Shown in pieces: positions 2,017 to 36,752 of a stretch of 38,340 nucleotides of DNA. The notes under the pieces were generated by a model, which worked only from the letters and a program-made list of their open reading frames with translations, made no database searches and was not told the origin of the DNA. The DNA comes from a virus: positions 1-38,340 of IMG/VR virus record IMGVR_UViG_3300034198_002577; one strand, given 5' to 3'. The position numbers and the translations under genes are program-made. Numbering within the stretch: the stretch's first letter is position 1; the number at the start of each line of letters is the position of its first letter.

Positions 2017-3969
2017 TTATCTTACTTCGTCGTGTCTATTATTATATTTTGGACTTATTGCTGGACCAAACCATACTGGATACATGGCGTGGGCGTCAGG
2101 TGGCTCGACTAAACCGACTACATTTGAGTCCCTTAGTTTAGCTGGAGCTCCTGGACCAGTTGGTGTTGATGGAGGAGATGATTTTACAGGAATAGTTGTT
2201 TGTGATGGAGCTGAGCTCGGTGTTGTTGAGCCAGACATAGATGTAGCTGTAGCGAGATTAGTACCCTGTGTTATAGTAGGCAATACAAAATTAGGTGTTT
2301 GTTGTGACTGAGTCTCTGTTCCGGATCCACCGGTTGAACTAGGAACAAATATATCTCCGGTTCCACCTTCATTTGGTGCAGCAGAGAAGTGCATTGGGTC
2401 TTTTACACTTTTCCAATTCATGCCCCAGCCTAAGCCAAAACTCTTTGCTACCATTCCTATTCCTGGAGGAAGAGTAGTCTTTGTCGAGCCATTTGGATTT
2501 TCACTTGGATTAATATCTAAAGCTGCTCCATATGCGTGCCAACTAGGTACAGAAGGATTATTAACATTTGGCCTGTTATTGTATCCCCCTAGCACCTTGA
2601 TATATCCAGGATTTGTGTTATCTAGATAGTCTACAAGGCCTTGGAATCTTTCCTTGTACTTTACCGCGACTTGAGCAGAGGCTCCTCCTTTAGACTTTAC
2701 AGTGGCAAGTTCAGGTTTAGGTACTGGGAAGAATCCACCCGGTGAATTATAACCACTTTCTGGTGTCGTTCCACTTCCAAAAGAACCAGGCTGTTCCGTA
2801 TCTTCACCTCCAGATTGTTTAAATAATATTCCATCTGCGTTAAAAGATATTTTCTCGGCATCTATCTTTAAGTCTCTATTTGAACTCTCGGAAGTTGTCT
2901 CGAGTTCCTCAAGAGCTGCACTCACGGTATTTACTGGCTTTTTATCATCTACACCCGCCTCAAACGATGGCTTAAGTTGACCTTCTTGGGTAGTATAGTC
3001 TGACATTCTCATAGCAAAGCTGCTTACGCCATACTTCTTTCCTATATTACTCTTATAAGAATTTAATATAGTGTCTAGACCTCCAGCCTTTGATTGCTGC
3101 TCGGAGTTCATATTGCTATATGTGCTTATAATCTCAGAAGATCCAGACTCAAACTCCCTCGTAGCAGCCATCTGTCTCTGCGCTGTATCATCAGATTGTA
3201 TAGAGGCAAGCCGTATATTTGTGTCTGCCCTCTCAGCGTCAGATCTTTTTTCTGGAACTTGAGGTGTTGGGATTACTGGAGGTGGTGGCTCTGCTATAGG
3301 AGGTGTGATATCAGATGCTGGAGTTATATCATTTGGCTTATTATCACCACTTAACCATTTTTGTATGTATGGAATTGCAGCTACAGCGCCTATACCTAAT
3401 AATCCACCTATAAATGCGGAAGCCATACTTCCACCAGAAGACGATGATCCAGAAGATGTACCACCTTTACTTAATATTTGTCCAAGTAGACCAAGCATCT
3501 TGGTCATTTGATTATTTAATTGAGCTAGTAGATTATTAGTCTCATTTAGCTGCTCTGAGACACCCTGCATACTATTGTCTAGCTTATCGCTAGCTCTATT
3601 CGTCTCAGATATATCTGTGTCTAGTTCTTTTAATAGACCTGAAAGTCTAGGGAACATAGTAGCGAATATTTTATTGTTTACTGCCCTAGCCGCCCTACCA
3701 AATGCTCCTAGTGCACCTCCTTCCTTTGTTGGAAGAGGTGTTTTAGTATTATCTTGCGATTTCGGCTGCTCTAGTTGTGCAGGCGCCTCTTGTTTCTTAG
3801 TGGCTTTGGACTCTTGAGCATCGGCTTGTTGTATAGCTATTTGCTCTTTGATAGTGTCGGCCATTCCACCGCCTATCTTATTATTGAGTTCGTCTACTAC
3901 GTGACCCTCGTCAGTTATAGAGTACTTTCGTCCTAACCAGTTAATACTATTTGGGTCTTTACTGGCCAT
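2017..3969 (-). CDS. Tail-associated protein with M15 peptidase domain
   Basis: A 650-residue protein. The N-terminal 100 residues are polar and Gln/Lys-rich. Residues about 118-165 are coiled-coil-like (many Asn, Leu and Asp). A Gly/Ser linker leads to a hydrophobic stretch at about 180-207 (ASAFIGGLLGIGAVAAIPYI). Residues about 430-530 match the M15 (VanY / L-Ala-D-Glu endopeptidase) family: GGYNNRP, SWHAYGAALDINP and DPMHF give the expected zinc ligands H478, D485 and H527. The last 120 residues are Ser/Thr/Pro-rich linker. The family hydrolyses peptide bonds of peptidoglycan cross-links. The start overlaps the holin gene by 11 bases, suggesting coupled translation. Adjacency to a holin would fit an endolysin, but the length and the coiled-coil and hydrophobic segments fit a virion protein better. 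Confidence 0.85.
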   Translation of the reverse strand: MASKDPNSINWLGRKYSITDEGHVVDELNNKIGGGMADTIKEQIAIQQADAQESKATKKQEAPAQLEQPKSQDNTKTPLPTKEGGALGAFGRAARAVNNKIFATMFPRLSGLLKELDTDISETNRASDKLDNSMQGVSEQLNETNNLLAQLNNQMTKMLGLLGQILSKGGTSSGSSSSGGSMASAFIGGLLGIGAVAAIPYIQKWLSGDNKPNDITPASDITPPIAEPPPPVIPTPQVPEKRSDAERADTNIRLASIQSDDTAQRQMAATREFESGSSEIISTYSNMNSEQQSKAGGLDTILNSYKSNIGKKYGVSSFAMRMSDYTTQEGQLKPSFEAGVDDKKPVNTVSAALEELETTSESSNRDLKIDAEKISFNADGILFKQSGGEDTEQPGSFGSGTTPESGYNSPGGFFPVPKPELATVKSKGGASAQVAVKYKERFQGLVDYLDNTNPGYIKVLGGYNNRPNVNNPSVPSWHAYGAALDINPSENPNGSTKTTLPPGIGMVAKSFGLGWGMNWKSVKDPMHFSAAPNEGGTGDIFVPSSTGGSGTETQSQQTPNFVLPTITQGTNLATATSMSGSTTPSSAPSQTTIPVKSSPPSTPTGPGAPAKLRDSNVVGLVEPPDAHAMYPVWFGPAISPKYNNRHDEVR

Positions 3970-4507
3970 TTATCTTTGCCAACTTTTCTTGTCCACGCAT
4001 GAAGCTTGTGACACCAAGAATTGCGCCAAATGCCAAGTGAATTAATCCACCATTGGATAATGTTAGGCTTTGCCATGGAGCATAGGTAAATTGTACACCT
4101 AGGCCCTTAAATATAACAGGTAAGAACATAGTAATTAGTGGGAATCCTATAAAGTCCATGAAGCATATTCCCATATAGAGCCATCCCATTGCTGGGCGCC
4201 AATATGCCTTTACCCAATGCTCATCTTGGTTATCTAGTTGTTGCTCTACAATCTCTTTATCAATGGCAGTTTGTGCTAGACCCACAGATGCCTGGGCCTG
4301 CGCAGTAGCTTGAACAGAAGCCATTTGAACAGTCTGTTGTGCCATAACTGAAGAGTTTTGGTTATTGTTATTCACATCAATTACTGTAACTGCTGGTGCA
4401 GGAGCTGGCGCGGGTGCGGGTGCAACTGGAGCAGGAGCTGGCGCGGGTGCGGGTGCAACTGGAGCAGGATCAGTATTTTGATCATCTGGTTTTGCAAATT
4501 TAGCCAT
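3959..4507 (-). CDS. Holin-like membrane protein (3TM / GTA-holin type)
   Basis: A 182-residue protein. The N-terminal third is an Ala/Pro-rich linker built from a duplicated 33-base unit. A Gln/Ala-rich helical stretch follows, then the motif WVKAYWRPAMGWLYMG and hydrophobic segments at about 100-135 and 152-170, ending in a short basic tail. The WRP motif followed by three closely packed helices resembles the GTA_holin_3TM family, which permeabilises the inner membrane. The ATG at 4507 was chosen over one nine codons upstream (4534) because it has a strong AGAGGA ribosome site and overlaps the -1 frame stop at 4500-4502 in the common ATGGCTAA arrangement. It lies between the gp26 frameshift region and the M15 hydrolase. 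A holin role is inferred from topology and motif. Confidence 0.75.
   Translation of the reverse strand: MAKFAKPDDQNTDPAPVAPAPAPAPAPVAPAPAPAPAPAVTVIDVNNNNQNSSVMAQQTVQMASVQATAQAQASVGLAQTAIDKEIVEQQLDNQDEHWVKAYWRPAMGWLYMGICFMDFIGFPLITMFLPVIFKGLGVQFTYAPWQSLTLSNGGLIHLAFGAILGVTSFMRGQEKLAKINGQ
4398..4463. repeat. Two perfect tandem copies of a 33-base unit
   Basis: Copies lie at 4398-4430 and 4431-4463, and the first six bases recur at 4464-4469. The unit encodes the Ala-Pro-Val linker near the N-terminus of the holin-like protein. It is locally far more GC-rich than its surroundings. Confidence 0.9.
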
Positions 4508-4687
4508 TCGCCTGTTTCCTCTGTTCTTCGACATCTTTCAGGTGTCGCATTATCATCTCTACGTAGAGGTCGCGCTCGAATGGTATAAGATTCTCTACTT
4601 CATTTATTGAGTATTTATGGTGCTGAGCCAATGAGAATATTGTTGTATAGTAATTCTCTAGATTATTGTGGTTCAGCGCAATGTAAA
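4500..4687 (-). CDS. -1 frame extension of gp26 (gp51-like tail assembly segment), no start codon of its own
   Basis: A 61-codon open stretch in the -1 frame relative to gp26, from the T-run at 4685-4691 to a TAA at 4500-4502. A TGA lies just upstream in this frame. No ATG or GTG occurs before residue 43, so independent initiation is unlikely. The product is coding-like: LAQHHKYSINEVENLIPFER, then DLYVEMIMRHLKDVEEQR and a charged tail. This HH-(K/W)(Y/W)S...E...PFER.(L/I)YV pattern is familiar from short proteins just after gp26 in T4-like phages and resembles C-terminal parts of tail assembly chaperones. Slippage at the T-run would add this segment to the first 231 residues of gp26, giving a 292-residue fusion. 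The frame and conservation-like content are seen directly. The fusion is inferred. Confidence 0.75.
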
Positions 4688-5377
4688 AAAATCAGATAGT
4701 GTCGTTAACTCGATCTCCCTGTCGCTTCCCTTTAAATTCTTATATTTTATAATATAAGACATCTTTGGCTGATTTGACATAAATTCTCTGACCTGCTCGA
4801 ATGTCTTAACATCTAGATTCTCTAAATATTCACCTATTTCTTTTAATGTATATTGAGAGCAGTCATAGACTTCATCACCCTCATAGATCTTATCAACACA
4901 TCTTACTATAAGCTGAAAGAATGCCTCATTTCCGGACTCTAGGAATTCCTTATCTTCGTATAGAGTTATCTTTGGATATTTTAACTGTATTCCAGAAGTG
5001 CTAGTGATCTTTATAATATTTTTTACATTTTCTGGAAATATAATATTGATTTTTTTCAGGTTAATATCAAAGTCATAGATCTTCTCGTCTTCTTTATCTT
5101 TATAAGATACCTTGACGGTATCATTTACTGAGTTAGCGCGTATCTGAATAAACAAATACTCGAGATCAAATAATGATAATATATCGATATCAAAATCATC
5201 TAATATGCAGTTATTAACGACCTGTTTTATTGAAAGAAGTATATCACTTTCTTGGTCACTGTCTTTTGCCATTAATAAAATCTTTTCTTCTTTAACAAGA
5301 AAAGGCCTAAAGTTTAATTTTTGCTTAGTGCTTGGAACTTCTAGCACAAATTGTGGATAGGATGTTTTTGGTAACAT
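4673..5377 (-). CDS. gp26: gp26-like baseplate/tail assembly protein (T4_baseplate family)
   Basis: A 234-residue protein resembling the T4_baseplate family (T4 gp26, 208 residues). The N-terminal pattern is typical: LPKTSYPQFVLEVPSTKQ, then FRPFLVKEEKILLMAKDS. Residues about 70-130 form a beta-rich middle part and the remainder is helical. A good CTGGAG ribosome site precedes the ATG at 5377. The frame ends with DFFTLR-stop, and a run of seven T residues directly precedes the last three codons, which is where the -1 frame begins. In T4 the product acts in baseplate hub assembly. The architecture here is like the lambda G/GT tail assembly chaperone pair, where most ribosomes make the short form and some make the fusion. 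Confidence 0.85.
   Translation of the reverse strand: MLPKTSYPQFVLEVPSTKQKLNFRPFLVKEEKILLMAKDSDQESDILLSIKQVVNNCILDDFDIDILSLFDLEYLFIQIRANSVNDTVKVSYKDKEDEKIYDFDINLKKINIIFPENVKNIIKITSTSGIQLKYPKITLYEDKEFLESGNEAFFQLIVRCVDKIYEGDEVYDCSQYTLKEIGEYLENLDVKTFEQVREFMSNQPKMSYIIKYKNLKGSDREIELTTLSDFFTLR
4685..4691 (-). promoter_or_regulatory. Candidate -1 ribosomal frameshift site (T TTT TTT)
   Basis: On the minus strand the gp26 codons read GAT TTT TTT ACA, which gives a heptamer T TTT TTT in the frame required for tandem -1 slippage. A -1 shift leads straight into the 61-codon frame ending at 4500. The gp26 stop follows only nine bases after the run. A weak stem GAGAAT/ATTCTC (4653-4658 with 4633-4638) begins about 27 bases downstream, farther than usual for a stimulator. 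The same frame change could also come from polymerase slippage adding one U. Confidence 0.7.
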
Positions 5378-9325: not shown

Positions 9326-10554
9326 GTAATCCAGGCGATATTCAAGTAAGTTCTTTTACTATAAAGACTGCTTCAGGAACACTAGACCTGACTTACTCAT
9401 TTGTGAGCGCTTCTATCTACGAGAGCATTTTTACTCCTGGAATAGTTATGTATGTTAAGGTACTTGACACCGATGATCAGGTAGGAATACATAAGATAGT
9501 AGGTGGAGAGCCTGTGTCTATATCTTTAGGAATCCCTGGTGGAGTCAAAGCAAACTATAAGTTTACTGTTATGCAAAACGACAACACTGTTGGTGCTACA
9601 GCGTCGATGAAGTCTAAGATGTATATGCTAAAAATGGTATCCGACGAGGTCATTCATGGGCATATCAATACGACAATTAAGAGTGCAGACACTCAGATAT
9701 CAAATCTTGTTCAGCAGATACATAAAGACTTACTACACAGCACAAAAAACCTCATAGTTGAAGATACTCAAGGAAACCAACACTTATCATTAAATGGTGG
9801 TATGTCTGCTCATGAAGCGATAGCTATGATTAGAAAAAGAGCTATGTCTGCCGAGAATAAGTCATCTCTCTTTGTCTTCTTCGAGACAAGACAGGACTCT
9901 GAAACTGTTTTTAAATTCTCTACTATAGAGAATCTTTTTAAATGTGACTCGGTCAAGACATTCCAGCAATCTGACGCTATTAACAGTAGCATCTATAATC
10001 AAACGGATAATCAGATTATAGCTATGGAGATACCGACCCACTTTAATACGATGGAGAGAATAAAGAAAGCCGCATCTGATGTCATCGAGTTTGACTATAC
10101 AACTTGGCAATATACTAAAAAGAGAATAGTATCGAATCCAACAGACTATACGACCGGTGGTACCGGAAATATGATATCAGCTGATGTCTTTGATAAGTTT
10201 ATAAATGCTGCAAAGAATCTTCCTCAACTATTTGTGCCAACCGATAACTATAAGAGGGCAGTCACACACATACCCGAAAAGATTCAAGATAGAAACTCAT
10301 ACCTCTCAACACTATCGCAAAACTCGATAAAGATTAGAACTTATGGGGATCTTGCTATAAAAGCAGGTGACGTAATAACCTTAAATATACCAACAAGATC
10401 TAGCACGACTGATAATAAGAAAAATGATTCACAGCTATCTGGTAAATTCCTAGTTTCTAGAATACACCATGATATAGGATTGGTCTCTGAGTCTCCTAGA
10501 TATACTTGTGTTATAGAGTGCATTAAGGGTAATATAGAGACTGGTGTACAATGA
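9322..10554 (+). CDS. gp27: gp27-like baseplate hub protein
   Basis: A 410-residue protein, close to T4 gp27 (391). The hub fold shared with P2 gpD and Mu gp44 is suggested by a first beta-domain (FTIKTASGTLDLTYSFVSAS, IYESIFTPGIVMYVKVLDTD), then SLFVFFETRQDSETVFKFST in the middle. The last part, SQLSGKFLVSRIHHDI with TCVIECIKG, is the typical end of the family (a (G)K(F/Y)LVS..HH strand). In T4 a gp27 trimer forms the hub between the tail tube and the gp5 spike. The gene overlaps gp53 and the gp5-like gene by ATGA at both ends, so the three are probably translated together. Confidence 0.8.
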   Translation: MSNPGDIQVSSFTIKTASGTLDLTYSFVSASIYESIFTPGIVMYVKVLDTDDQVGIHKIVGGEPVSISLGIPGGVKANYKFTVMQNDNTVGATASMKSKMYMLKMVSDEVIHGHINTTIKSADTQISNLVQQIHKDLLHSTKNLIVEDTQGNQHLSLNGGMSAHEAIAMIRKRAMSAENKSSLFVFFETRQDSETVFKFSTIENLFKCDSVKTFQQSDAINSSIYNQTDNQIIAMEIPTHFNTMERIKKAASDVIEFDYTTWQYTKKRIVSNPTDYTTGGTGNMISADVFDKFINAAKNLPQLFVPTDNYKRAVTHIPEKIQDRNSYLSTLSQNSIKIRTYGDLAIKAGDVITLNIPTRSSTTDNKKNDSQLSGKFLVSRIHHDIGLVSESPRYTCVIECIKGNIETGVQ

Positions 10555-12170
10555 CAGAAACTAATCTAGGTAGCAATTTCTCATGGTGGGTTGGCAAAGT
10601 CGTTAATGTAAAGGACGACCCATATCTATCCGGGCGCGTGCGTGTAAGAATAATAGGTCGCCACGACGATATTAATAACTTTCCAGATGACTCTCTACCA
10701 TGGGCAATGCCTATGCAACCTATCACTAGCGCAGCAGTCGGAAGAATAGGAACATCACCGTTAGGCCTTTTACCTGGCTCACACGTATTAGGGATGTACG
10801 CCGATAAAGACCAGCAGTACCCAATAGTACTCGGCTCATTTGGTAAAGGTGGAGATGCCGACGGTGGACCCATTGAGGATGGAGCAATATCAATAGACTA
10901 TAAGAATGGTGGAAGTATACCATCTCTTAGCCAGTCGGATGACGTGTTAGATAATAACGCCTTCAATAAATTATTTCTTGGTAGAGCTCTTACTGAGAAG
11001 ATATATGACAGTCTTACAAATAATGGGGGTCCTAATCCTTCGACACCTAATACTAGAGGCTCTAATATAACGAAAGATGTTAAGGCAAAATTACATAAGC
11101 CTGATGTGCCTACTACAGCTTCAGTAGATCCAAAGGATAAAGGTAACGTATTAGATCATATTAAACAGGTAGACCCACAATTTCGATCTACGGTACTCCC
11201 TAATGCTACAACTAATGTATCATCTGTTAGGGATATTATGCAGATGGCTAGCCCAAAAGGCATTAATAATTTATTACAAGGATCTATGACTAGAGCATTT
11301 AGTTTATTAGCATCTAGCGTAGGTTTAAGCCCTACTCTAAGTATGTTATCTGGATCACTTTTATCAGGAGCGATATCGGGTAATTATCAATCGATAATAA
11401 GATCGGTAATGAATGGACTATTATTATCTGCTGCTGGAAACGGTGGTATATTACCTAAAATAATTAGTCCACGAGCTAATGTGATTACTAATAATTCGCC
11501 GAGACCTTTTATTAATTCGATTGTTTCAGTTATACCACCGTTATATGTTCAACAATACTACTCTATAGAAAATGATCCTTATCCTGGATATATACAGTGG
11601 AAAGGACAAGCGGGTGATTTTCTGTATACACTCAGAAACGGGGAGCCTAATTATAGTTCTCCTCAACAGCACATAACGGCTCATCATGGAAATCTTATGG
11701 GTTCTGGATTGGGTGTTATTATGAATCAGGGTTTAACTGGTGTAGCACTAGGTATAGCGTTATCTACATTAATGAATGGCACTAAGTCTTCTATATCTGA
11801 TATGGGCTTATCTAAGATAATGGGCTCAGGAGCATCAGTAGGAAATATGTTATCTTTAGCAACTAAGCTACTCGGAGGAAGAGGTTTAAATATACAATCA
11901 TTTGTTGGTAGCATGGCGGACTCTGTTTTATCATCTGGATTTTCTTCATCTATGAATAACTATGCGCATAAGCAGTCTATATTAGCTATGAAGAAGAAAG
12001 CTCTAAATGAAGTATATAATAAAACTGCAGATCAACAGGATTCTGAAGCTATCGATGCTGCTAAACAATATGCATTGGCTAAACTGGATTCTATGCCAAA
12101 TTTATCATCTATTACGGAATCAGTTCCGCTCTCTGATGGGACCGCGTATCAGGTAAAGGTTTCACGATAA
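10551..12170 (+). CDS. gp5: gp5-like hub protein with N-terminal OB domain, no lysozyme domain
   Basis: A 539-residue protein. Residues about 8-105 match the gp5/gpV OB domain: WWVGKVVNVKDDPYLSGRVR, VRIIGRHDD, LPWAMPMQP, then LPGSHVLGMYADKDQQYPIV and LGSFGKGG. The other 430 residues do not show the T4 lysozyme fold. They are Gly/Ser/Leu-rich, with hydrophobic stretches and a helical, Lys/Ala-rich part near the C-terminus. T4 gp5 (575 residues) fuses OB, lysozyme and beta-helix. Here the OB part stands without the lysozyme and the beta-helix is encoded by the next gene. The product should still anchor the spike to the hub. The function of the long C-terminal region is unknown. Confidence 0.8.
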   Translation: MTETNLGSNFSWWVGKVVNVKDDPYLSGRVRVRIIGRHDDINNFPDDSLPWAMPMQPITSAAVGRIGTSPLGLLPGSHVLGMYADKDQQYPIVLGSFGKGGDADGGPIEDGAISIDYKNGGSIPSLSQSDDVLDNNAFNKLFLGRALTEKIYDSLTNNGGPNPSTPNTRGSNITKDVKAKLHKPDVPTTASVDPKDKGNVLDHIKQVDPQFRSTVLPNATTNVSSVRDIMQMASPKGINNLLQGSMTRAFSLLASSVGLSPTLSMLSGSLLSGAISGNYQSIIRSVMNGLLLSAAGNGGILPKIISPRANVITNNSPRPFINSIVSVIPPLYVQQYYSIENDPYPGYIQWKGQAGDFLYTLRNGEPNYSSPQQHITAHHGNLMGSGLGVIMNQGLTGVALGIALSTLMNGTKSSISDMGLSKIMGSGASVGNMLSLATKLLGGRGLNIQSFVGSMADSVLSSGFSSSMNNYAHKQSILAMKKKALNEVYNKTADQQDSEAIDAAKQYALAKLDSMPNLSSITESVPLSDGTAYQVKVSR

Positions 12171-12901
12171 TGGCAGACGTAAATAATAAGAGATACCCAG
12201 ACTCTCAAATTGCTTCTCAATATCCATATGCTAAAGTGACCATGCATCCTGATGGGAGTGGTAGATATGAGGATCATACACCAGATCATGAGACTTTTAG
12301 AGAATTCTTTGCTGGCGGTGGTCATAGGGAAGTTGGAAATAGTCCGGACGGCGGGATTGGAAGAGAGGTATTAGCTACTCTTGGAAAAGTATTTCATAAC
12401 TTAGCTGATGGGATGAGCCACACTGTTGCTGGTCATCATGATAGGACTACTGGTGGAAATCACAGAGAGCAGACAGAGGGTGATCATCATGAAGAGAAAG
12501 GTGGTAATCACTATAATGCTATAGCAGGTCATGTTGTTTCTACAACAAATGAGACGGTAGTAAATCACACGGCAGATGGCGATCATCACCATATAACCTC
12601 AGGAGATCATATAATAGATCATGATGGAAGCATTCACACTAATGTGAGTAATGATCATATATCTCATGTTGAGGGTAATCATGGTTTAGTTGTTGCAAAA
12701 GGTGACCATGGTATACAGCTTCAATCTGGTAATATGAATATTGAAGTGACAAATGGTGAATATAATCTTAAGACTCTTCACCCTATAACGATTAGAAGTG
12801 ATGAGAAGATAACTTTAAAGGTGGGAAAGAACACTATAGTAATGGATCAAAATGGAATAACAGTGACTGCAATTGCCGTCAGCTTTATTAAGGCTAGTTA
12901 A
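12170..12901 (+). CDS. His-rich beta-helix spike protein (gp5 C-terminal-like)
   Basis: A 243-residue protein. From about residue 80 to 175 it is built of eight-residue units around (G)(D/N)H, for example HREQTEGD, HHEEKGGN, DHHHITSG and NHGLVVAK. A less His-rich beta-helix continues to the end. T4 gp5C is a triple-stranded beta-helix of octads, so this looks like the detached spike helix of gp5. I count 25 His in 243 residues. The ATG overlaps the OB gene stop by one base (TAATG), and the PAAR tip follows three bases after the stop. OB protein, shaft and tip are therefore consecutive genes. Confidence 0.8.
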   Translation: MADVNNKRYPDSQIASQYPYAKVTMHPDGSGRYEDHTPDHETFREFFAGGGHREVGNSPDGGIGREVLATLGKVFHNLADGMSHTVAGHHDRTTGGNHREQTEGDHHEEKGGNHYNAIAGHVVSTTNETVVNHTADGDHHHITSGDHIIDHDGSIHTNVSNDHISHVEGNHGLVVAKGDHGIQLQSGNMNIEVTNGEYNLKTLHPITIRSDEKITLKVGKNTIVMDQNGITVTAIAVSFIKAS

Positions 12902-28908: not shown

Positions 28909-31833
28909 ATGGCGATTCAGGTATCACCGGTAGCTAATACCCAGACGTTTGGCGCGTGGCTTCAAGTCACAAATTATATGACCCAAATCATCAGCGTAAA
29001 CACTGTCACCACTGACGCCAGTCTAGGAGGATCAGTTACGACTGGTAATGCTTTTGTTAACGGTATATTTGGATCTAACAGCATATTTGTTAATACCTTA
29101 TCTGGTGGTAATCTTACAGTTAATAATGTTCTAACAATAACGTCAAATGTTACTATCAATGCTACTGCGAGTATTGGAAACTCTACGGTTAATGTTGTAG
29201 CAGGCTGGTTAGCAGGAAATCAAACTATATTAGCAGCATTTACAAATGCAAATAATTATGGTGAAGTTGCATTTAATAACATTAATGCCGGAAGTAGTGC
29301 TTCTATAGACCTTGCACTTTATGACACTTATGGAATTCAAGCAAACAATTATATAGATCTTGGAATTAATAGCAATAATTGGTCTAATAGTCAATGGTCG
29401 ATCAATGGACCATCTGACGGGTATCTGTATACTGGTAATACTAACTTATCAATCGGTGTTGCAAGTAATAACTATATTAACTTCTTTACGAATGGAACAT
29501 TCTCTTCTAGTGAAGTTATGCGTATTACTGCTGGAGCAAATGTTGGTATTAAAAATACAAATCCTGATGCAACTCTTGCAGTAACAGGATCAGCGAATAT
29601 ATCTAGCAATGTTTATATCGGTGGTGCTATAACTGGTGGAAATACAATTGCCGTATTGGGAAATGCTACTTTCTCAAATGTCATGCATGTGGTTGGCGCA
29701 GTGACATTACAAAATACACTATCTGTTTCTAATGCTACAACACTGTCTAATACGCTTGCAGTAACTAATTCGACTACACTATCTAATACACTCTATGTTA
29801 TTGGAAATAGTACGCTTGCTAACACCCTTCTTGTCACTGGAAACACAACTCTATCTAATACGCTTGTAGTAATTGGGGCTGCCACGCTATACAGTACTCT
29901 TAATGTGTCAGATGCAACTGTGCTATCGAATACACTAGCAGTTACTAATGCTACAACACTGTCAAATACTTTATCAGTAGTCGGGGCTGCATCGCTATCA
30001 AATACACTAGCTGTTACTAATGCTACAACACTATCAAATACTTTATTAGTTGTTGGAGCTGCATCACTATCAAATACTTTAGCCGTAGTTGGAGCTGCAT
30101 CACTATCAAATACTTTGAGTGTAACAAATGCTACAACACTATCAAATACTTTATTAGTTGTTGGAGCTGCATCACTATCAAATACTCTTTCTGTAACTAA
30201 TTCTACTACTATGTCTAATACTTTGGCGGTAGCTGGTAATACTACTCTATCTAATACTTTAGTAGTCGTTGGGAATGCTACTTTATCTAATACACTTTTA
30301 GTTACTGGAAGTACTTCGCTGTCTAATACTTTAGCTGTTACAGGCGCTGCTACACTCTCAAATACTCTATCAGTAACAAATTCAGTAATGTTCTCAAATA
30401 CTCTTTTTATTACAGGAAATACTACACTAGCAAATACAATACTAGTTACTGGAAATGCTATCTTATCAAATACTCTTCTAGTTGTTGGTGCAGTCACACT
30501 AGCAAATACATTAACTGTAACAAACACAGCTAATTTCTCTAATACGGTTAATATTATAGGTAACACATCATTATCAAATAATATGAATGTTATTGGTTGG
30601 GTTGGTATTGGAAATAATTCACCGGCTATAGTTGATAAACTAAGAGTTGAGGGAAATGTAGGAGCTCTTGGCTCTATATGGAGTAATTCTGGTCAGATAT
30701 TTGCTAATAATCTTGCTATAATTGGTGATGGCACAAATGGTTATATTACACCTAATAATACAAACGGTACTCTAAATCTTGGTGCTAATAATACAACATA
30801 CATCAGTGTGAGTTCTATTAATTCTACAAATGCTTTATTAAATGGAACTAATGTTACTATAAATGCTGCTTCTTATACTATTGCACCAAATATGGTATCA
30901 AATACACTAGGGATATACCATACTGGAACTATAAACACTGCAACATTCTCTGTAGGATCTGTTCTTAATATTAACACAACCAGCATGTCCTTTAATAATG
31001 CAGTTTCATTTGCAAATTCATTGGCATTAACTGGAGCGGCAACATTCTCTAATACACTGACACTCACCGGCGCAGTTGTACTCGGTAATACTCTTAGCGT
31101 TACAAATGCAGTAACACTATCTAATACTTTAACTGTTACAGGACATATGCAGATGAATCAATCTGCTAATATAACTGGAACACTAGGAGTAACAAGTTAT
31201 GCTAATATAGCTGGAAGTATGACAATTGAAAATGATCTAGTAGTTAAGGGAAACCTATCCTTTACTGCTAATATAGCCGGAAGCATCATACCAACGAGCA
31301 ACTCATTTACACTTGGAAATAATACTAATAGATTTGCTATATCTGCTCTTGGTGGCGACTTTGCTAATCAATTAACAGTTACTAACTCGGTGTCATTTAG
31401 TAATACTTTGACTGTATCTGGAATTGTAACATTTAACAAAAATATCTTGGCAAATAATTTCGTATCAAACAATTTTGTAATAACAAATGGAATTGGATAT
31501 ACTGTCTCAAATACAGTGTCTGGATTCCCAGCTATTGGTGATAATTTAGTTGATAATGTGGCAATTACGGCATATAGGTCTGCAGATTACTTAATACAGG
31601 TAACAGATGCTATTACAAACAATCAGCAGGTGTCTAAAATACTAATGATACATAATGGAACCACTGCATATACTACAGAGTATGGAATATTCTTTACAAA
31701 TACTGCAGCAGGTCAACTAGCTACATTTAGCGCCAATGTTGATCCAGTCGGTGGTAATATAAGATTATATGCTAATGTGATTCAGTCTGCTGCAGTTGTA
31801 AAATTTACTAAGACGTCTATAGTACACGATTAA
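28909..31833 (+). CDS. Repeat-built tail fiber-like protein
   Basis: A 974-residue protein. Residues 1-70 are a virion-attachment-like N-terminus (AIQVSPVANTQTFGAWLQVT). Residues about 85-245 hold a beta domain with DLALYDTYG, DGYLYTGNTNLSIGVAS and EVMRITAGANVGI, which recurs in the larger fiber downstream. Residues 253-564 are 26 tandem 12-residue units of type TTLSNTLAVTNA, and further units occur near 705-745. The C-terminal 120 residues carry a conserved module, AYRSADYLIQVTD, ILMIHNGTTAYTTEYGIFF, common in T4-like structural proteins. The repeats probably form a long fibrous beta shaft. Host-binding function is inferred from architecture. Confidence 0.8.
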   Translation: MAIQVSPVANTQTFGAWLQVTNYMTQIISVNTVTTDASLGGSVTTGNAFVNGIFGSNSIFVNTLSGGNLTVNNVLTITSNVTINATASIGNSTVNVVAGWLAGNQTILAAFTNANNYGEVAFNNINAGSSASIDLALYDTYGIQANNYIDLGINSNNWSNSQWSINGPSDGYLYTGNTNLSIGVASNNYINFFTNGTFSSSEVMRITAGANVGIKNTNPDATLAVTGSANISSNVYIGGAITGGNTIAVLGNATFSNVMHVVGAVTLQNTLSVSNATTLSNTLAVTNSTTLSNTLYVIGNSTLANTLLVTGNTTLSNTLVVIGAATLYSTLNVSDATVLSNTLAVTNATTLSNTLSVVGAASLSNTLAVTNATTLSNTLLVVGAASLSNTLAVVGAASLSNTLSVTNATTLSNTLLVVGAASLSNTLSVTNSTTMSNTLAVAGNTTLSNTLVVVGNATLSNTLLVTGSTSLSNTLAVTGAATLSNTLSVTNSVMFSNTLFITGNTTLANTILVTGNAILSNTLLVVGAVTLANTLTVTNTANFSNTVNIIGNTSLSNNMNVIGWVGIGNNSPAIVDKLRVEGNVGALGSIWSNSGQIFANNLAIIGDGTNGYITPNNTNGTLNLGANNTTYISVSSINSTNALLNGTNVTINAASYTIAPNMVSNTLGIYHTGTINTATFSVGSVLNINTTSMSFNNAVSFANSLALTGAATFSNTLTLTGAVVLGNTLSVTNAVTLSNTLTVTGHMQMNQSANITGTLGVTSYANIAGSMTIENDLVVKGNLSFTANIAGSIIPTSNSFTLGNNTNRFAISALGGDFANQLTVTNSVSFSNTLTVSGIVTFNKNILANNFVSNNFVITNGIGYTVSNTVSGFPAIGDNLVDNVAITAYRSADYLIQVTDAITNNQQVSKILMIHNGTTAYTTEYGIFFTNTAAGQLATFSANVDPVGGNIRLYANVIQSAAVVKFTKTSIVHD
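30019..30078 (+). repeat. 60-base exact direct repeat, copy 1
   Basis: Identical to 30127-30186, an offset of 108 bases or three 36-base units. This suggests a recent unit duplication. Confidence 0.9.
30127..30186 (+). repeat. 60-base exact direct repeat, copy 2
   Basis: Identical to 30019-30078. The copies diverge directly after the final AATACT. Confidence 0.9.
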
Positions 31834-31845
31834 GGATAAAAGCCC

Positions 31846-32193
31846 ATGGCAATGAAGGCCAATATAACTATCGATCAAGGAACGTCATTTGCCACGTCGA
31901 TTGCGATGTCCGATGCGGCTAATAACCCATTAGATCTTACGGCTTATACTGGATATGCCCAGATTAGAAAGTGGTATAGTTCTGTAGCACACACTAACTT
32001 TCACGTGACACTGACACTCGGGGCTGTTAACTTAAGTTTAACGCCAGCTCAGACAGATGTTTTGGCACCGGGTAGATATGTGTATGATTTGGCTCTTGTG
32101 GATCATGCAAACTCCGTTACCCGTGTTATTGAAGGCGTTATAACTGTTACACCTAAAGTAACATCCTTGTCTGATTACGCAAACACACCATAA
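31846..32193 (+). CDS. Small beta-sandwich virion protein
   Basis: A 115-residue protein: ANITIDQGTSFATSIAMSDA, NNPLDLTAYTGYAQIRKWY, LSLTPAQTDVLAPGRYVYDL and RVIEGVITVTPKVT. The same layout (IDQGT.F...I.......LDL..YT..A.IRK, later GRYVYD, then EG...V.P.VT) is common in marine T4-like phages between fiber genes. It resembles the N-terminal beta-sandwich of baseplate proteins such as BppU, at low certainty. It probably decorates or connects fibers. AAGGA precedes the ATG. Confidence 0.75.
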   Translation: MAMKANITIDQGTSFATSIAMSDAANNPLDLTAYTGYAQIRKWYSSVAHTNFHVTLTLGAVNLSLTPAQTDVLAPGRYVYDLALVDHANSVTRVIEGVITVTPKVTSLSDYANTP

Positions 32194-32202
32194 AGATTAA
32201 AA

Positions 32203-32469
32203 ATGGCAGTACAGGTAAGATTAGCTACAACTGCACCGGCAATCAGAGCAAATACTGCATCTCTAACTGCAACTGCCGCTGGAGCGGCCCAGCAAGCCAC
32301 ATCACTAAAAACCACCCCGGTTGTACAAGACTACATTCATAATCTCATGGACGTGGTGGAGAAAGACCTTGTAGCCGGGGCCACACTTGTATATAATGCA
32401 AATACGCATAAATATGAGATAAAACCGATTGAGATATCAAATCAGATCTTAGATGGCGGTACTTTTTAG
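32203..32469 (+). CDS. Small fiber-region protein with C-terminal LDGGTF motif
   Basis: An 88-residue protein. The N-terminal 40 residues are Ala/Thr-rich. The C-terminal half, YIHNLMDVVEKDLVAGATLV, YNANTHKYEIKPI, LDGGTF, is homologous to the next protein and shares its last residues with it and with the large fiber. Function is not known. The pattern (DV....G..L.(Y/W)NA.T.KYE) is a recurrent module in phage fiber regions and may be a docking tail. The ribosome site is weak. Confidence 0.75.
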   Translation: MAVQVRLATTAPAIRANTASLTATAAGAAQQATSLKTTPVVQDYIHNLMDVVEKDLVAGATLVYNANTHKYEIKPIEISNQILDGGTF

Positions 32470-32478
32470 GGGAAACCT

Positions 32479-32676
32479 ATGGCAGAAGTAGATGGACAAG
32501 CTGCAAAAATAGCAACTACTAACCAGGTAAAACACAAATATGTACATGAACTACGTGATGTATCAGAGAATAATCCACCGGATGGTTCCTGCCTCGTTTG
32601 GAATGCGGAAACTAATAAATACGAGGTAAAGATTATAGACCTGAAAGTCATAGTACTGGACGGTGGGCTTTTTTAA
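32479..32676 (+). CDS. Small fiber-region protein with C-terminal LDGGLF motif
   Basis: A 65-residue protein: KHKYVHELRDVSENNPPDGS, CLVWNAETNKYEVKIIDL, VLDGGLF. It is a paralogue of the preceding 88-residue protein without the Ala-rich N-terminus. AGGGG lies upstream of the ATG. The stop codon lies in a 14-base palindrome (CTTTTTTAAAAAAG, 32668-32681) that also supplies part of the next gene's ribosome site. Function is unknown. Confidence 0.75.
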   Translation: MAEVDGQAAKIATTNQVKHKYVHELRDVSENNPPDGSCLVWNAETNKYEVKIIDLKVIVLDGGLF

Positions 32677-32690
32677 AAAAGGAAAATTAG

Positions 32691-35600
32691 ATGGCCAATT
32701 ATATCCAGATTAGAAGAAGTAATACAAATCCAACACCGGCCAATACACTAACAAGTGGTGAGTTAGCCTATTCCTACGCAGCAAATGTACTCTATATTGG
32801 TGCACAAACAGGTGTAGGTTTTGCATCTTTTAAGGTTGGCGGTCAAAAATTCTCGTATTTAGATAGAGCGTCCGTAGGTAACTTAACAGCTAATGCTGCA
32901 ATCATAACTGACGGTAACTCGTTTATCTCCAATACCTATACTTCAGGCCTTGTTATCGGAGCCACGATGGCTAGCCCGACATATGTCGTGGTTAACTCGG
33001 TATCCGACTCTAACTACTCAAATACTGTACTCGGTACACTTCAGGGAAACAATGAGCTCGTAACGGCCAATGCGATTGCTCACTACGTTCAGAAGTCGAT
33101 CCTCTTAGGTGGTGTGTACGCAAACGGCGCTCCTTCTGCTGGATCTAACGGAGCCATTCAGTATAACGACCAGTCGACTGGTTTTAACACGATCGCCGGC
33201 GCTCCTAACATGATCTATGACAATGTTGCCGGTACCCTAAAGGTTGGCAACACATCCTCATACGTATTGACTGGATACATCACCGACCTTAAAGCTACTC
33301 AGGAGAACCTAGGTAACCAGAACAACTACGTTCAGGCGATGATCCACAACGATAATACCGGCATCGAGGCCTCGGCTGACTGGGTTGCTTATAACGACGA
33401 CCAGTCTTACGCCAGCTTCATCGACATGGGTATCGTTAGTACTAACTACTCTAACGCTGCTTCTACCATAACACCTGCTGGAACATCTTACCTCTACACA
33501 GGTAACTCGGCGCTTGTTATCGGTACGGCTAATGCCCAGTACGTATCGATCTTTACCGGCGGAATTATGGCTGCTAACGAGCGCATGCGCTTTGACGCAT
33601 ACGGTAACGTAGCTATTGGAACTACAGACACAGCCAATGCAACGTTCATCGTCAAGGGTTCTGCCGAGTTCACGGCCGGTATCTTTGCAAACGGAAGCAT
33701 AGGCTCTAATGGATATGTCCTTCACAGTAATGGTACAGCTACTTACTGGGACACTCCGGTTGCTGGAGCTGCAGGTGCTAATACTCAGATTACGTATAAC
33801 GATTCTGGCTATGCAAATGGTTCTACTTCGTTCGTATTTAATAAGTCAAGCAATACTCTTACGGTTAATGGTACGATTAACACTATAGCTATCTCGGCTA
33901 ACGGGTCGCTCGGCTCCGCAAACCAAGCACTTCACAGCAACGGTACCGGTCTCTACTGGGCAAATGTCACGTCGATTGCTGGAACTAATACACAAGTACA
34001 GTTTAACGACGATGGTTATGCTAATGCAACTGCTGGATTTACCTTTGACAAGACAACTAATGCCCTATCACTTGGTACAAGCACAGCAAACCACAGCATT
34101 CACTTTGCTGATAGTAACACATATTTAAGTGCATTTAATAATAACGTTATACTTTCAACTGGTAGTTCATATAATGGAGATGCAGGTCATCAGAATAGAA
34201 TAGCTATAGGTCAGTATGCGGGCGACACTAATCAAAACTCTTACGCGATCGCTATTGGTTCAAATACCGGACAAATCGATCAGCGTTATGGCGCTGTCGC
34301 TATAGGTCAATTTGCGGGTTACGATCACCAGCACATCGATTCTGTCGCGATTGGTGCTAACTCCGGCGCTATTAATCAGCTATGGGACTCTGTAGCAATC
34401 GGCCGTAGTGCAGCTGAGCTAAATCAAGGAGCATATAGCATAGCTATGGGTCGCAGTGCTGGTGCTAATAGCCAGATGAACACTGCCGTGGCAATTGGTA
34501 ACTATGCTGCTGCTAATACTCAGGGTGCAAACTCGGTAGCTATCGGTTCTTATGCCGGTAATGAAACCCAACAGCAGGATGCTGTTGCTATCGGTGCTAA
34601 CGCAGGCGCCTTTGAACAGGGTGAGCGTTCAGTAGCGGTTGGTAAATTCTCTGGTAGTAATAATCAAGGCAGCGAGTCGGTTGCTGTAGGCTACGAGGCC
34701 GGACAATCTAATCAATCAAGTGACTCTGTTGCTGTTGGTACTCGTTCGGCTCTAGAGTCACAGGGCTCATACGGTGTCGCTGTTGGTGCTCATGCTGGTG
34801 AGATATATCAGGGTGACTCGGCTATCGCAGTTGGTCAGTCGGCAGGCAGATATAATCAGCAATCAAATTCAATTGCAATAGGTATTTTTGCCGGTGGTGA
34901 AGGTCAAGGATCTGGCTCGATATCGATCGGTGATTATACTTCTGAAGGTGTTGATTACGTATACTACAATCCAACATTCACTGTTGGATCTTCATCGTGG
35001 ACCATCGACGTATCATCTGATGGCGGAGAGTTAGACTTTTTTGTTGCTATATATGTTAATAACAATGACAAGAAAGTCTATGTAACTGGACCGGGAGTTG
35101 CTCCTGGTACATATATTACCAGCGGATCCGCGGGAACATATACTGTAAATCAAGTTGCTTTAGATAACTCGAGCGGACAAATCTTAGTAACCTTCGGCGG
35201 ACAAGGACAAAATGCCGTTGCTATTGGTACTGCAGCAGCTGACTCTTTCCAAGGATCTAATGCTGTAGCTATTGGTTATCATGCCGGTTATGCTAACCAA
35301 GAGACCGGTGCAGTATCTATGGGCGCAACTGCAGGATATTCAAATCAAGGATATAATTCGGTAGCTGTGGGTATTGGCTCAGGATATTCCAATCAAGGAT
35401 ATCAGGCTATAGCGATAGGTGATACCGCAGGTCATGCAAATCAAACATATCAAGCGATAGCTATGGGCTTCTTTGCCGGCGCCAACTCTCAGAGCGAGCG
35501 CGCTGTGGCTATTGGTTACTATGCTGGTGCAAATACACAGGGTATCAAGGCAGTTGCTGTTGGACGTTCCGCAGGTGAGGATAGACAAGGTCAAGATGCT

Positions 35601-36752
35601 GTTGCTATTGGTCATCGTGCAGGTCAAACAACTCAAGCTGTCGGTGCTATTGCTTTAGGCCGCTATGCCGGTGAGATAAATCAAGGTAATAACTCGATTG
35701 CTATCGGTTATCAGGCTGGTGTGACTAATCAAGTTAATAACTCTATTATCTTGAATGCTTCTGGATCAACTCTTGATGCGTCAGTTGCCGGTCTCTTTAT
35801 TAATCCGATACGTAACGTTGCCGGTAGCAGCAATGGATCAAGCAACTTCTTGTTCTATGATACTGCTACAAAGGAAGTAAGCTATGCTGTCATGGAAAAC
35901 CTGTCAGCTAATAGTACCTTAACTGTAGGTAACAGCAGCGTTAACACGGTCATCAATGCAACGTCTATCACGGTGCATGATATATACTCCAACGGCACCA
36001 TCAACGCTACATCGTTTACAATTAATGGCAACTTAACAGCTAATAGCTTAGGCCTCTATCTAAATCAGAATGGCGTAGTTAATGCTGGTGCTACTACAGT
36101 AACTGGACTTACAGTTAACGGTGACTCAACTATCACCGGTAACCTGACGGTTCAAGGTACTCTAACTACAATTGATACTACTCAGGTAGCAATCGCTGAC
36201 ATCAACCTTAAGCTCGCGTCTAACAATGCAGCCGATGTTGTTGACTTTGGTTTCTATGGTCAGTATAAAGTAGATGCAACTACTTACTACTCAGGTATCT
36301 TCCGTGATCACACCATGGGTGATGCTACTAATGCTGTGTATCACCTCTACTCGACTACAACAGAACCGGGCATGACAGCCCCGTATGTAGTAGATGGTAC
36401 TGCTGCAGGTTATCATCTATCAACTCTTATGTCTTACCTTGATACTGGTAAGGGATTTGTTGCTAATTCAACTACCGTTGCTCTTACTGCAAATGCATCG
36501 GTTAACGTAGCGATCACTGCTAATACTCTTCATCTTTCTAGTGCGCTTCCAGCCAACTCTGGTGGTACAGGTCTTGCTACTTACCTTGCAGGTGATATCG
36601 TGTATGCCTCTGGCACGTACGATGGTGGTGGTCAGACATCAACAACTCTAACTACTCTATCTGTTCCGATAGCAGCTGCTAACGATCAGATCCTAATGAT
36701 TAAAAACAACATACCAGCGTACTCTGATACAATTGACGGTGGTACCTTCTAA
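32691..36752 (+). CDS. Large tail fiber with 16-residue beta-roll repeats
   Basis: A 1353-residue protein. Residues 1-45 (YIQIRRSNTNPTPANTLTSG, ELAYSYAANVLYIG) are the typical N-terminus of phage fibers. Residues about 195-325 hold a domain (DWVAYNDDQSYASFIDMGI, SYLYTGNSALVIGTANAQYV, ERMRFDAYGNVAIG) paralogous to one in the first fiber. About 340-440 has two SNGT...W modules. Residues 505-744 and 844-1019 are 16-residue repeats AIGxxAGxxxQGxxSV, similar to YadA head-type beta-rolls, separated by a 99-residue module. The C-terminus has FGFYGQYKVDATTYYSGIFR and ends DTIDGGTF. It probably forms a trimeric fiber involved in receptor contact. Codon use and GC shift at about 33000-33760. Confidence 0.85.
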   Translation: MANYIQIRRSNTNPTPANTLTSGELAYSYAANVLYIGAQTGVGFASFKVGGQKFSYLDRASVGNLTANAAIITDGNSFISNTYTSGLVIGATMASPTYVVVNSVSDSNYSNTVLGTLQGNNELVTANAIAHYVQKSILLGGVYANGAPSAGSNGAIQYNDQSTGFNTIAGAPNMIYDNVAGTLKVGNTSSYVLTGYITDLKATQENLGNQNNYVQAMIHNDNTGIEASADWVAYNDDQSYASFIDMGIVSTNYSNAASTITPAGTSYLYTGNSALVIGTANAQYVSIFTGGIMAANERMRFDAYGNVAIGTTDTANATFIVKGSAEFTAGIFANGSIGSNGYVLHSNGTATYWDTPVAGAAGANTQITYNDSGYANGSTSFVFNKSSNTLTVNGTINTIAISANGSLGSANQALHSNGTGLYWANVTSIAGTNTQVQFNDDGYANATAGFTFDKTTNALSLGTSTANHSIHFADSNTYLSAFNNNVILSTGSSYNGDAGHQNRIAIGQYAGDTNQNSYAIAIGSNTGQIDQRYGAVAIGQFAGYDHQHIDSVAIGANSGAINQLWDSVAIGRSAAELNQGAYSIAMGRSAGANSQMNTAVAIGNYAAANTQGANSVAIGSYAGNETQQQDAVAIGANAGAFEQGERSVAVGKFSGSNNQGSESVAVGYEAGQSNQSSDSVAVGTRSALESQGSYGVAVGAHAGEIYQGDSAIAVGQSAGRYNQQSNSIAIGIFAGGEGQGSGSISIGDYTSEGVDYVYYNPTFTVGSSSWTIDVSSDGGELDFFVAIYVNNNDKKVYVTGPGVAPGTYITSGSAGTYTVNQVALDNSSGQILVTFGGQGQNAVAIGTAAADSFQGSNAVAIGYHAGYANQETGAVSMGATAGYSNQGYNSVAVGIGSGYSNQGYQAIAIGDTAGHANQTYQAIAMGFFAGANSQSERAVAIGYYAGANTQGIKAVAVGRSAGEDRQGQDAVAIGHRAGQTTQAVGAIALGRYAGEINQGNNSIAIGYQAGVTNQVNNSIILNASGSTLDASVAGLFINPIRNVAGSSNGSSNFLFYDTATKEVSYAVMENLSANSTLTVGNSSVNTVINATSITVHDIYSNGTINATSFTINGNLTANSLGLYLNQNGVVNAGATTVTGLTVNGDSTITGNLTVQGTLTTIDTTQVAIADINLKLASNNAADVVDFGFYGQYKVDATTYYSGIFRDHTMGDATNAVYHLYSTTTEPGMTAPYVVDGTAAGYHLSTLMSYLDTGKGFVANSTTVALTANASVNVAITANTLHLSSALPANSGGTGLATYLAGDIVYASGTYDGGGQTSTTLTTLSVPIAAANDQILMIKNNIPAYSDTIDGGTF
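34203..34922 (+). repeat. 15 tandem 48-base beta-roll units (first array)
   Basis: Each unit encodes 16 residues with pattern A(I/V)GxxAGxxxQGxxSV. All are of equal length with no indels. Confidence 0.9.
35220..35747 (+). repeat. 11 tandem 48-base beta-roll units (second array)
   Basis: The same 16-residue unit resumes in frame after a 297-base (99-residue) interruption at 34923-35219. Confidence 0.9.

Follow-up and report, generated by a model that had tools for sequence, protein, structure and literature searches.

Comparative evidence for −1 frameshifting in a tail assembly chaperone gene of an uncultivated T4-like phage

The tail genes of double-stranded DNA phages reportedly share a conserved −1 frameshift, said to have been described by Xu, Hendrix and Duda in 2004, with the tail assembly chaperones G and GT of phage lambda as the known case. 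In T4, genes 26 and 51 are said to be separate short and long genes, and frameshifting is reportedly conserved in several T4-like groups, both points being ascribed to Vladimirov and co-workers in 2022. According to the papers that cite it, the study of Vladimirov, Gautam and Davidson (Virology 2022; 566:9–15) identified tail assembly chaperone (TAC) genes in T4-like phages (PMC10885494, PMC12846349); one of these papers credits it with poly-T −1 signals in the TAC-N genes of such phages (PMC12846349), and the other mentions some T4-like phages that carry a short gene and a fused long gene in place of frameshifting (PMC10885494). The gp51 proteins of cyanophages and of marine vibriophage have been noted to lack the first ~200 residues (Sullivan et al. 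2010, PMC3037559). Because frameshifted TACs of T4-like phages have, as far as the citing papers convey, already been described (Vladimirov et al. 2022), the finding reported here is not new in kind, and the preliminary description of the locus erred at that level in supposing it undescribed in T4-like phages. The TAC frameshift mechanism is not new, and the present locus is a well-supported new example. From the comparison of homologous loci, we consider it highly probable that a single TAC gene gives rise to two proteins by −1 ribosomal frameshifting of the lambda G/GT type.

The window, i.e., the whole stretch of 38,340 nucleotides that was analysed (IMG/VR record IMGVR_UViG_3300034198_002577), is a contig of an uncultivated virus with a T4-like tail cluster. 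The minus strand carries, in this order, homologues of gp4, gp2 and the tail tube protein, 'gp26', the 61-codon segment and then two genes, a small holin-like one and one of 650 aa, with tail tube cap, hub and wedge genes on the plus strand. Scanning the window for Rfam families and tRNAs gave no matches. The elements of the TAC locus are as follows.

4673–5377, minus strand: short form (TAC-N), 234 aa, 27.5 kDa, annotated in relatives as 'gp26/baseplate hub'
4685–4691, minus strand: slippery heptamer T TTT TTT, its phase set by the zero-frame codons GAT TTT TTT
4673–4675, minus strand: zero-frame stop TGA, three sense codons past the heptamer and within the 5' arm of an RNA stem
4500–4685, minus strand: −1-frame continuation (TAC-C, the 'gp51' of cyanophages), 61 codons plus stop, the first codon TAC re-reading base 4685
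4500–5377, minus strand: predicted long form (TAC-NC) made by the −1 frameshift, calculated at 292 aa and 34.6 kDa
3959–4507, minus strand: next gene, encoding a small membrane/holin-like protein, whose start ATGGCTAA overlaps the −1-frame stop

The gp26-like reading frame ends in L-S-D-F-F-T-L-R (codons GAT TTT TTT ACA TTG CGC TGA). The short form matches PF12322 (T4_baseplate; E = 4.6e-51, 174 bits, against a curated gathering cut-off of 24.5) and phrog_150 (E = 5.3e-54), and the name 'gp26' for this gene of the window is a database convention only. The 61-codon segment matches phrog_634 (E = 1.1e-23), the family of the gp51 baseplate hub assembly catalyst, and when the two parts are joined by the −1 shift, the match to phrog_150 covers positions 7–282 of 282 with 213 bits, versus 184.5 bits for the short form. 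The −1-frame stop at 4500–4502 overlaps the start of the next gene at 4507 (ATG GCT AA). The preliminary description had picked out the seven Ts in T TTT TTT phase before the last gp26 codons (positions 4691–4685), a coding-looking, gp51-like frame of 61 codons opened by a −1 shift, and the overlap of its end with the start of the holin gene; all of these hold, the coding character being borne out by the phrog_634 match and by the codon-position selection given below. Its fusion product stands as a prediction, though with a calculated mass of 34.6 kDa rather than about 33 kDa, and its statement that the downstream frame has no usable start codon was nearly right: a TTG exists at 4631, but inside the conserved part, and no Shine–Dalgarno (SD)-like sequence is seen ahead of it.

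Relatives were collected from phage records and from IMG/VR, where the queries were the downstream segment and gp26 from several lineages. A scan with four query lineages yielded 317 loci whose zero-frame stop was complete. The motif T TTT TTN lies just ahead of that stop in 316 of them (last base T in 160, C in 150, A in 5 and G in 1), which fall into 135 clusters at <80% identity, and the sole outlier (L009) was mis-anchored by tblastn, its real junction being T TTT TTG. All 136 unique junctions of a first set carry the motif as well. The distance from heptamer to stop is 0–3 codons in nearly all of the 316 junctions, the run of Ts (seven in the window) varies from 6 to 9 in relatives, and the −1 frame stays open for at least 50 codons past the zero-frame stop in every correctly anchored complete locus; each relative has a homologue of the TAC-C segment in that frame. 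One homologue set is biased towards two phenylalanines at the junction by its search peptide, FFYIALNH, whereas the search peptides of three other sets lay outside the junction, and these sets are free of that bias. Elsewhere in the same genes phenylalanine is encoded by TTT in 812 of 1221 cases (about two-thirds) and aspartate by GAT in 1370 of 1873 (73%), and the invariance of the heptamer therefore goes beyond codon usage; since the heptamer is present in all homologues examined, its occurrence in the window is more than chance. Related-locus searches with the D490 protein gave no matches, and those with the ACP17 protein returned the genome of ACP17 only.

The substitution pattern changes at the same point. 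Between pairs of relatives, the fastest-changing base upstream of the heptamer is the third position of the zero frame (0.59, versus 0.35 and 0.26 for the other two positions), and the fastest-changing base downstream is the third position of the −1 frame (0.53–0.56 versus 0.14–0.32). By these rates, the heptamer marks the point at which coding selection leaves the zero frame and takes up the −1 frame. The conserved residues of the −1 frame likewise start there, as FFY..L.H..L.NYY...F (Y 81%, L 92%, H 91%, L 96%, Y 92% and Y 97%), which is upstream of any conserved start codon.

We considered that the downstream segment might be a separate small gene, i.e., gp51 as annotated, on which ribosomes re-initiate, or are coupled, at the stop of gp26 and use a start codon that is weak or not AUG. 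Database records do annotate a separate gp51 that starts just past or overlapping the gp26 stop (in D490 and RHph_I9 the annotated start overlaps it), and an ATG is present in the −1 frame of 44 of the 135 clusters. The position of such a start is, however, conserved nowhere. No ATG, GTG or TTG occurs at or before −1-frame residue +2 in 131 of the 135 clusters, or before residue 18 in 61 of the 135, and a start codon with an SD-like 4-mer is found for the −1 frame in 6 of 135 clusters, compared with 90 of 95 for gp26 starts under a similar test. Because the frame switch and the conserved residues begin at the heptamer and SD-like starts are rare, an independently started gp51 is very unlikely; in addition, translational coupling leaves the invariant in-phase heptamer and the stem that follows it unexplained.

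A sequencing error, or decay of a gene, that split an originally fused open reading frame is a reading with next to no probability. One-base indels in homopolymers are a common error, and T4 relatives carry one fused frame; yet the same split is found in 316 loci, including the independently sequenced S-PM2, P-HM1, phiM12, D490 and ACP17, with purifying selection on both sides of the junction, and the comparative data already refute this reading. The survey of relatives thus favours the programmed −1 frameshift that the preliminary description had likened to lambda G/GT. The slippery run and the missing start, whose conservation was the question raised there, are conserved in the relatives, with T TTT TTN in all 316 correctly anchored junctions; a conserved non-AUG start with a ribosome site was looked for and was not found (SD-like starts in 6 of 135 clusters), and relatives with a closed frame or without a T-run were looked for and are absent among the correctly anchored junctions.

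The RNA just past the heptamer is folded more stably than the rest of the gene. For the 60 nucleotides that begin 6 nt past the heptamer, the mean minimum free energy is −15 kcal/mol, as compared with mostly −6 to −9 elsewhere in the gene, and the z-score is −3.65, as compared with about −0.3 there. The element behind this in the window's group is a 9-bp stem with the consensus GCUGA(A/G)(C/U)CA paired with UG(G/A)(C/U)UCAGC; in the window itself 8 of the 9 pairs form, with one A–C mismatch, from the following arms.

4669–4677, minus strand: 5' arm of the RNA stem, GCUGAACCA, which starts 7 nt past the heptamer and holds the zero-frame UGA
4622–4630, minus strand: 3' arm of the RNA stem, UGGCUCAGC

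Among 77 sequences, 92% of the cells are paired, versus 18–37% when the 3' arm is slid, and the stem shows 30 double-changed cells with a covariation score that 0 of 500 shuffles reached. The clearest covariation is at column 20/65 (G–C 37, A–U 19, G–U 14); because these two columns are second codon positions, Ser/Asn and Ala/Val tend to co-vary in the protein. Random choice of synonymous codons would give 5.07 of the 9 pairs, versus 8.34 observed, and by this measure the stem is kept beyond the protein requirement. An unbiased scan of all helices placed the 9-bp stem at the top, with 90% pairing over 117 sequences, whereas RNAalifold, run on the same 77-sequence alignment, returned the contrary result of no consensus structure. 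A downstream RNA stimulator 5–9 nt from the slip site is common, and not obligatory, in −1 frameshifting; with its 7-nt spacer the stem falls within this range and is a putative stimulator. On the 5' side, an SD-like sequence is present at −20 to −6 from the heptamer in 14 of 95 clusters, versus 0–3 in other intervals, and was rejected as a general upstream stimulator on account of this limited occurrence.

The stem also bears on the possibility that RNA polymerase, rather than the ribosome, slips on the T run and makes a fused message. Polymerases can slip on runs such as this one of seven Ts (6 to 9 in relatives); such slippage, however, usually needs 8–9 Ts, and 52 of the 135 clusters have just six, mostly as T TTT TTC. 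Because of these six-T clusters, the phase, which always fits tandem tRNA slippage, and a stem that is selected beyond the protein at ribosomal spacing, polymerase slippage is disfavoured, and we regard it as extremely unlikely.

Other lineages have other structures downstream of the heptamer. The S-PM2-like and phiM12-like groups fold better than controls (z of about −2.1) with stems of their own: S-PM2 has a long hairpin and S-PM2-like phages one of 10–14 bp, P-HM1 and its relatives have a GC-rich hairpin (GCCCUC/GAGGGC), and the downstream folds of phiM12 and D490 are very stable. Some related lineages have little structure downstream (e.g., L205, L212 and L285). The loci over which these differences are seen are L002, L003, L005, L006 and L169–L326. 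We see about an even chance that the site is built in two layers, in which U UUU UUN is invariant across the sampled frameshifting T4-like groups and the stimulatory stems are replaced by non-homologous ones from lineage to lineage (9-bp long-loop, 10–14-bp S-PM2-like, GC-rich P-HM1-like), with T4 having separate short and fused long genes instead. The covarying stem and its turnover among lineages were not found described in the literature, and Vladimirov et al. (2022) may cover both.

The two predicted products correspond to two known T4 proteins. T4 and Thanatos-2 gp51 is one protein of 249 aa, and the Thanatos-2 profile match takes in both the N and the C part (PHROG 150 positions 14–282, and PHROG 634). 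In BLASTP, the frameshift product aligns with T4-type gp51 straight through the junction (DFF|YIALN with DLF|LIILN), and gp26 of T4 and Thanatos-2 (the latter matching PF12322 with E = 6.9e-29) is collinear with the N part and ends exactly at the junction (...KEFFELL stop and ...KDIFSLM stop, respectively). Since gp26 ends at the junction and gp51 aligns through it, T4 gene 26 corresponds to the short form and gene 51 to the long form. Neither the RNA stem past the T run nor the identity of T4 gp51 as the fused form was part of the preliminary description.

A sequence search for solved structures found no match to the short form. In a structure search with its AlphaFold2 model (pLDDT 91.5), two PDB chains stood well above all others, namely 3fgx with Z 8.1 and 2ob9, the HK97 tail assembly chaperone, with Z 7.6 over 83 residues; the next chain has a Z of 2.5. 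The scores are middling and concern residues 1–93 only, and the Foldseek result for the same model (E = 1.1, probability 0.60) is not significant alone. The predicted fold of the short form thus resembles the HK97 tail assembly chaperone in the N-terminal 93 residues only.

Downstream of the TAC locus lies the gene that would encode the client of such a chaperone.

2017–3969, minus strand: candidate tape measure protein, 650 aa, with a C-terminal M15 peptidase-like domain (PF13539, E = 8.3e-12)

Residues 386–538 match a domain that also occurs in Rhizobium phage proteins annotated as tape measure proteins, and the record of the phiM12 gene at the same place notes similarity to tape measure proteins; position and this one shared domain make the 650-aa gene a candidate tape measure gene. 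The small gene in between has holin profile matches (PF11351 GTA_holin_3TM, E = 9.3e-7; phrog_3427 holin, E = 6e-7), and its protein contains a repeated Pro–Ala stretch (VAPAPAPAPAP...). Its position between the chaperone and candidate tape measure genes suggests that the product could be a tail-related membrane protein.

T4 gp26 and gp51 have classically been called hub assembly chaperones (PMC3004832), and the frameshift could be real while its products act in assembly of the baseplate hub and not as tape-measure chaperones. We think this unlikely, given that the predicted fold is near that of the HK97 tail assembly chaperone, that a tape-measure-like gene follows shortly downstream both here and in phiM12, and that later work, as cited in PMC10885494, gives T4-like phages a short TAC gene and a separate, fused long one. 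The two roles may also be one, because the start of the hub needs a tape measure chaperone. Virion composition in a relative is compatible with the TAC assignment: in the proteome of S-CREM2, ORF206 and ORF207 (both chaperone halves) are absent and the next two, ORF208 and ORF209, are abundant (PMC10665884), as would be expected if the former are a chaperone and the latter virion proteins.

The S-CREM2 record (OR473000.1 154483–163554; L330) has, just past the chaperone, two adjacent large genes annotated as 'endolysin' (1565 and 1456 aa), the proteins of which are abundant in a virion with a 418-nm tail. These proteins look like tape measure rather than lysis proteins. S-H34, with a 129-nm tail, has genes of 936 and 735 aa at the same place, and the ratios of tail length to downstream gene length in these two phages, compared in order to pick out the tape measure, give no simple match. 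Elsewhere in the window, the plus strand encodes two long repetitive proteins of 974 and 1353 aa (28909–36752), one with many near-identical 'SNTLAVTNATTLSNTL' units and the other with 'AIGxxAG'-type repeats, which are probably tail fibres or adhesins, and the gp5-like hub/lysozyme seems to be split over two genes of 539 and 243 aa (10551–12901, plus strand), each matching a different part of phrog_430.

From the comparative evidence we infer slippage on the heptamer, at some rate, and a role for the products in tape measure assembly, as follows. Most ribosomes would read the 234-aa TAC-N and terminate at the UGA. A fraction, with tRNA-Phe in both the P and the A site on U UUU UUU, would slip back by one base, helped by the RNA stem, which begins 7 nt downstream and includes the UGA. 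The slipped ribosomes would read 61 more codons and produce the 292-aa TAC-NC. TAC-N and TAC-NC together would cover the tape measure protein and recruit subunits of the tail tube onto it, like gpG and gpGT of lambda.

If this reading is right, the 'gp26' and 'gp51' of hundreds of marine T4-like phages would be halves of one frameshifted chaperone gene, and re-annotation is possible. In NC_006820, NC_015280, NC_027204, OZ196389, MN988520, OR473000 and NC_041997 the halves are annotated apart (as gp26 and gp51, or as hypothetical), with the exception of ACP17 (NC_041997), in which the second half is wholly unannotated. The conserved stem, for its part, offers a compact natural set for how the slip rate of the bacterial ribosome is tuned, and for how this is kept in evolution.

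The gene of the window has in common with lambda G/GT a short protein, a predicted −1 slip on X XXY YYZ just before the stop, a C-terminal extension without a start of its own and a tape-measure-like gene downstream; unlike in lambda, the heptamer is U UUU UUU, a 9-bp stem is conserved downstream of it, and a small membrane protein gene sits between the chaperone and the candidate tape measure. At the TAC locus of phage Adele (Vandenendeviridae) the −1 shift is likewise placed on a T-rich signal close to the TAC-N end, and the −1 frame of Adele-type loci is open in all genomes, as it is at the junction described here; Adele differs in belonging to another family and in its motif, GTTTTT (PMC12846349). 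The cyanophage 'gp26' and 'gp51' (T4-GC 11 and 12; Sullivan et al. 2010) are the same gene pair in the same frames, with T TTT TTC in S-PM2 and P-HM1, and differ in being annotated as two genes; if they are one split gene, the 'missing 200 residues' of gp51 are explained by the frameshift. The T4-like TAC genes of Vladimirov et al. (2022), as far as the papers citing them report, belong to the same protein family, the genome in the window being an uncultivated relative. T4 and Thanatos-2 carry two separate genes and need no frameshift, whereas the phage of the window and the cyanophages would obtain both forms from one gene.
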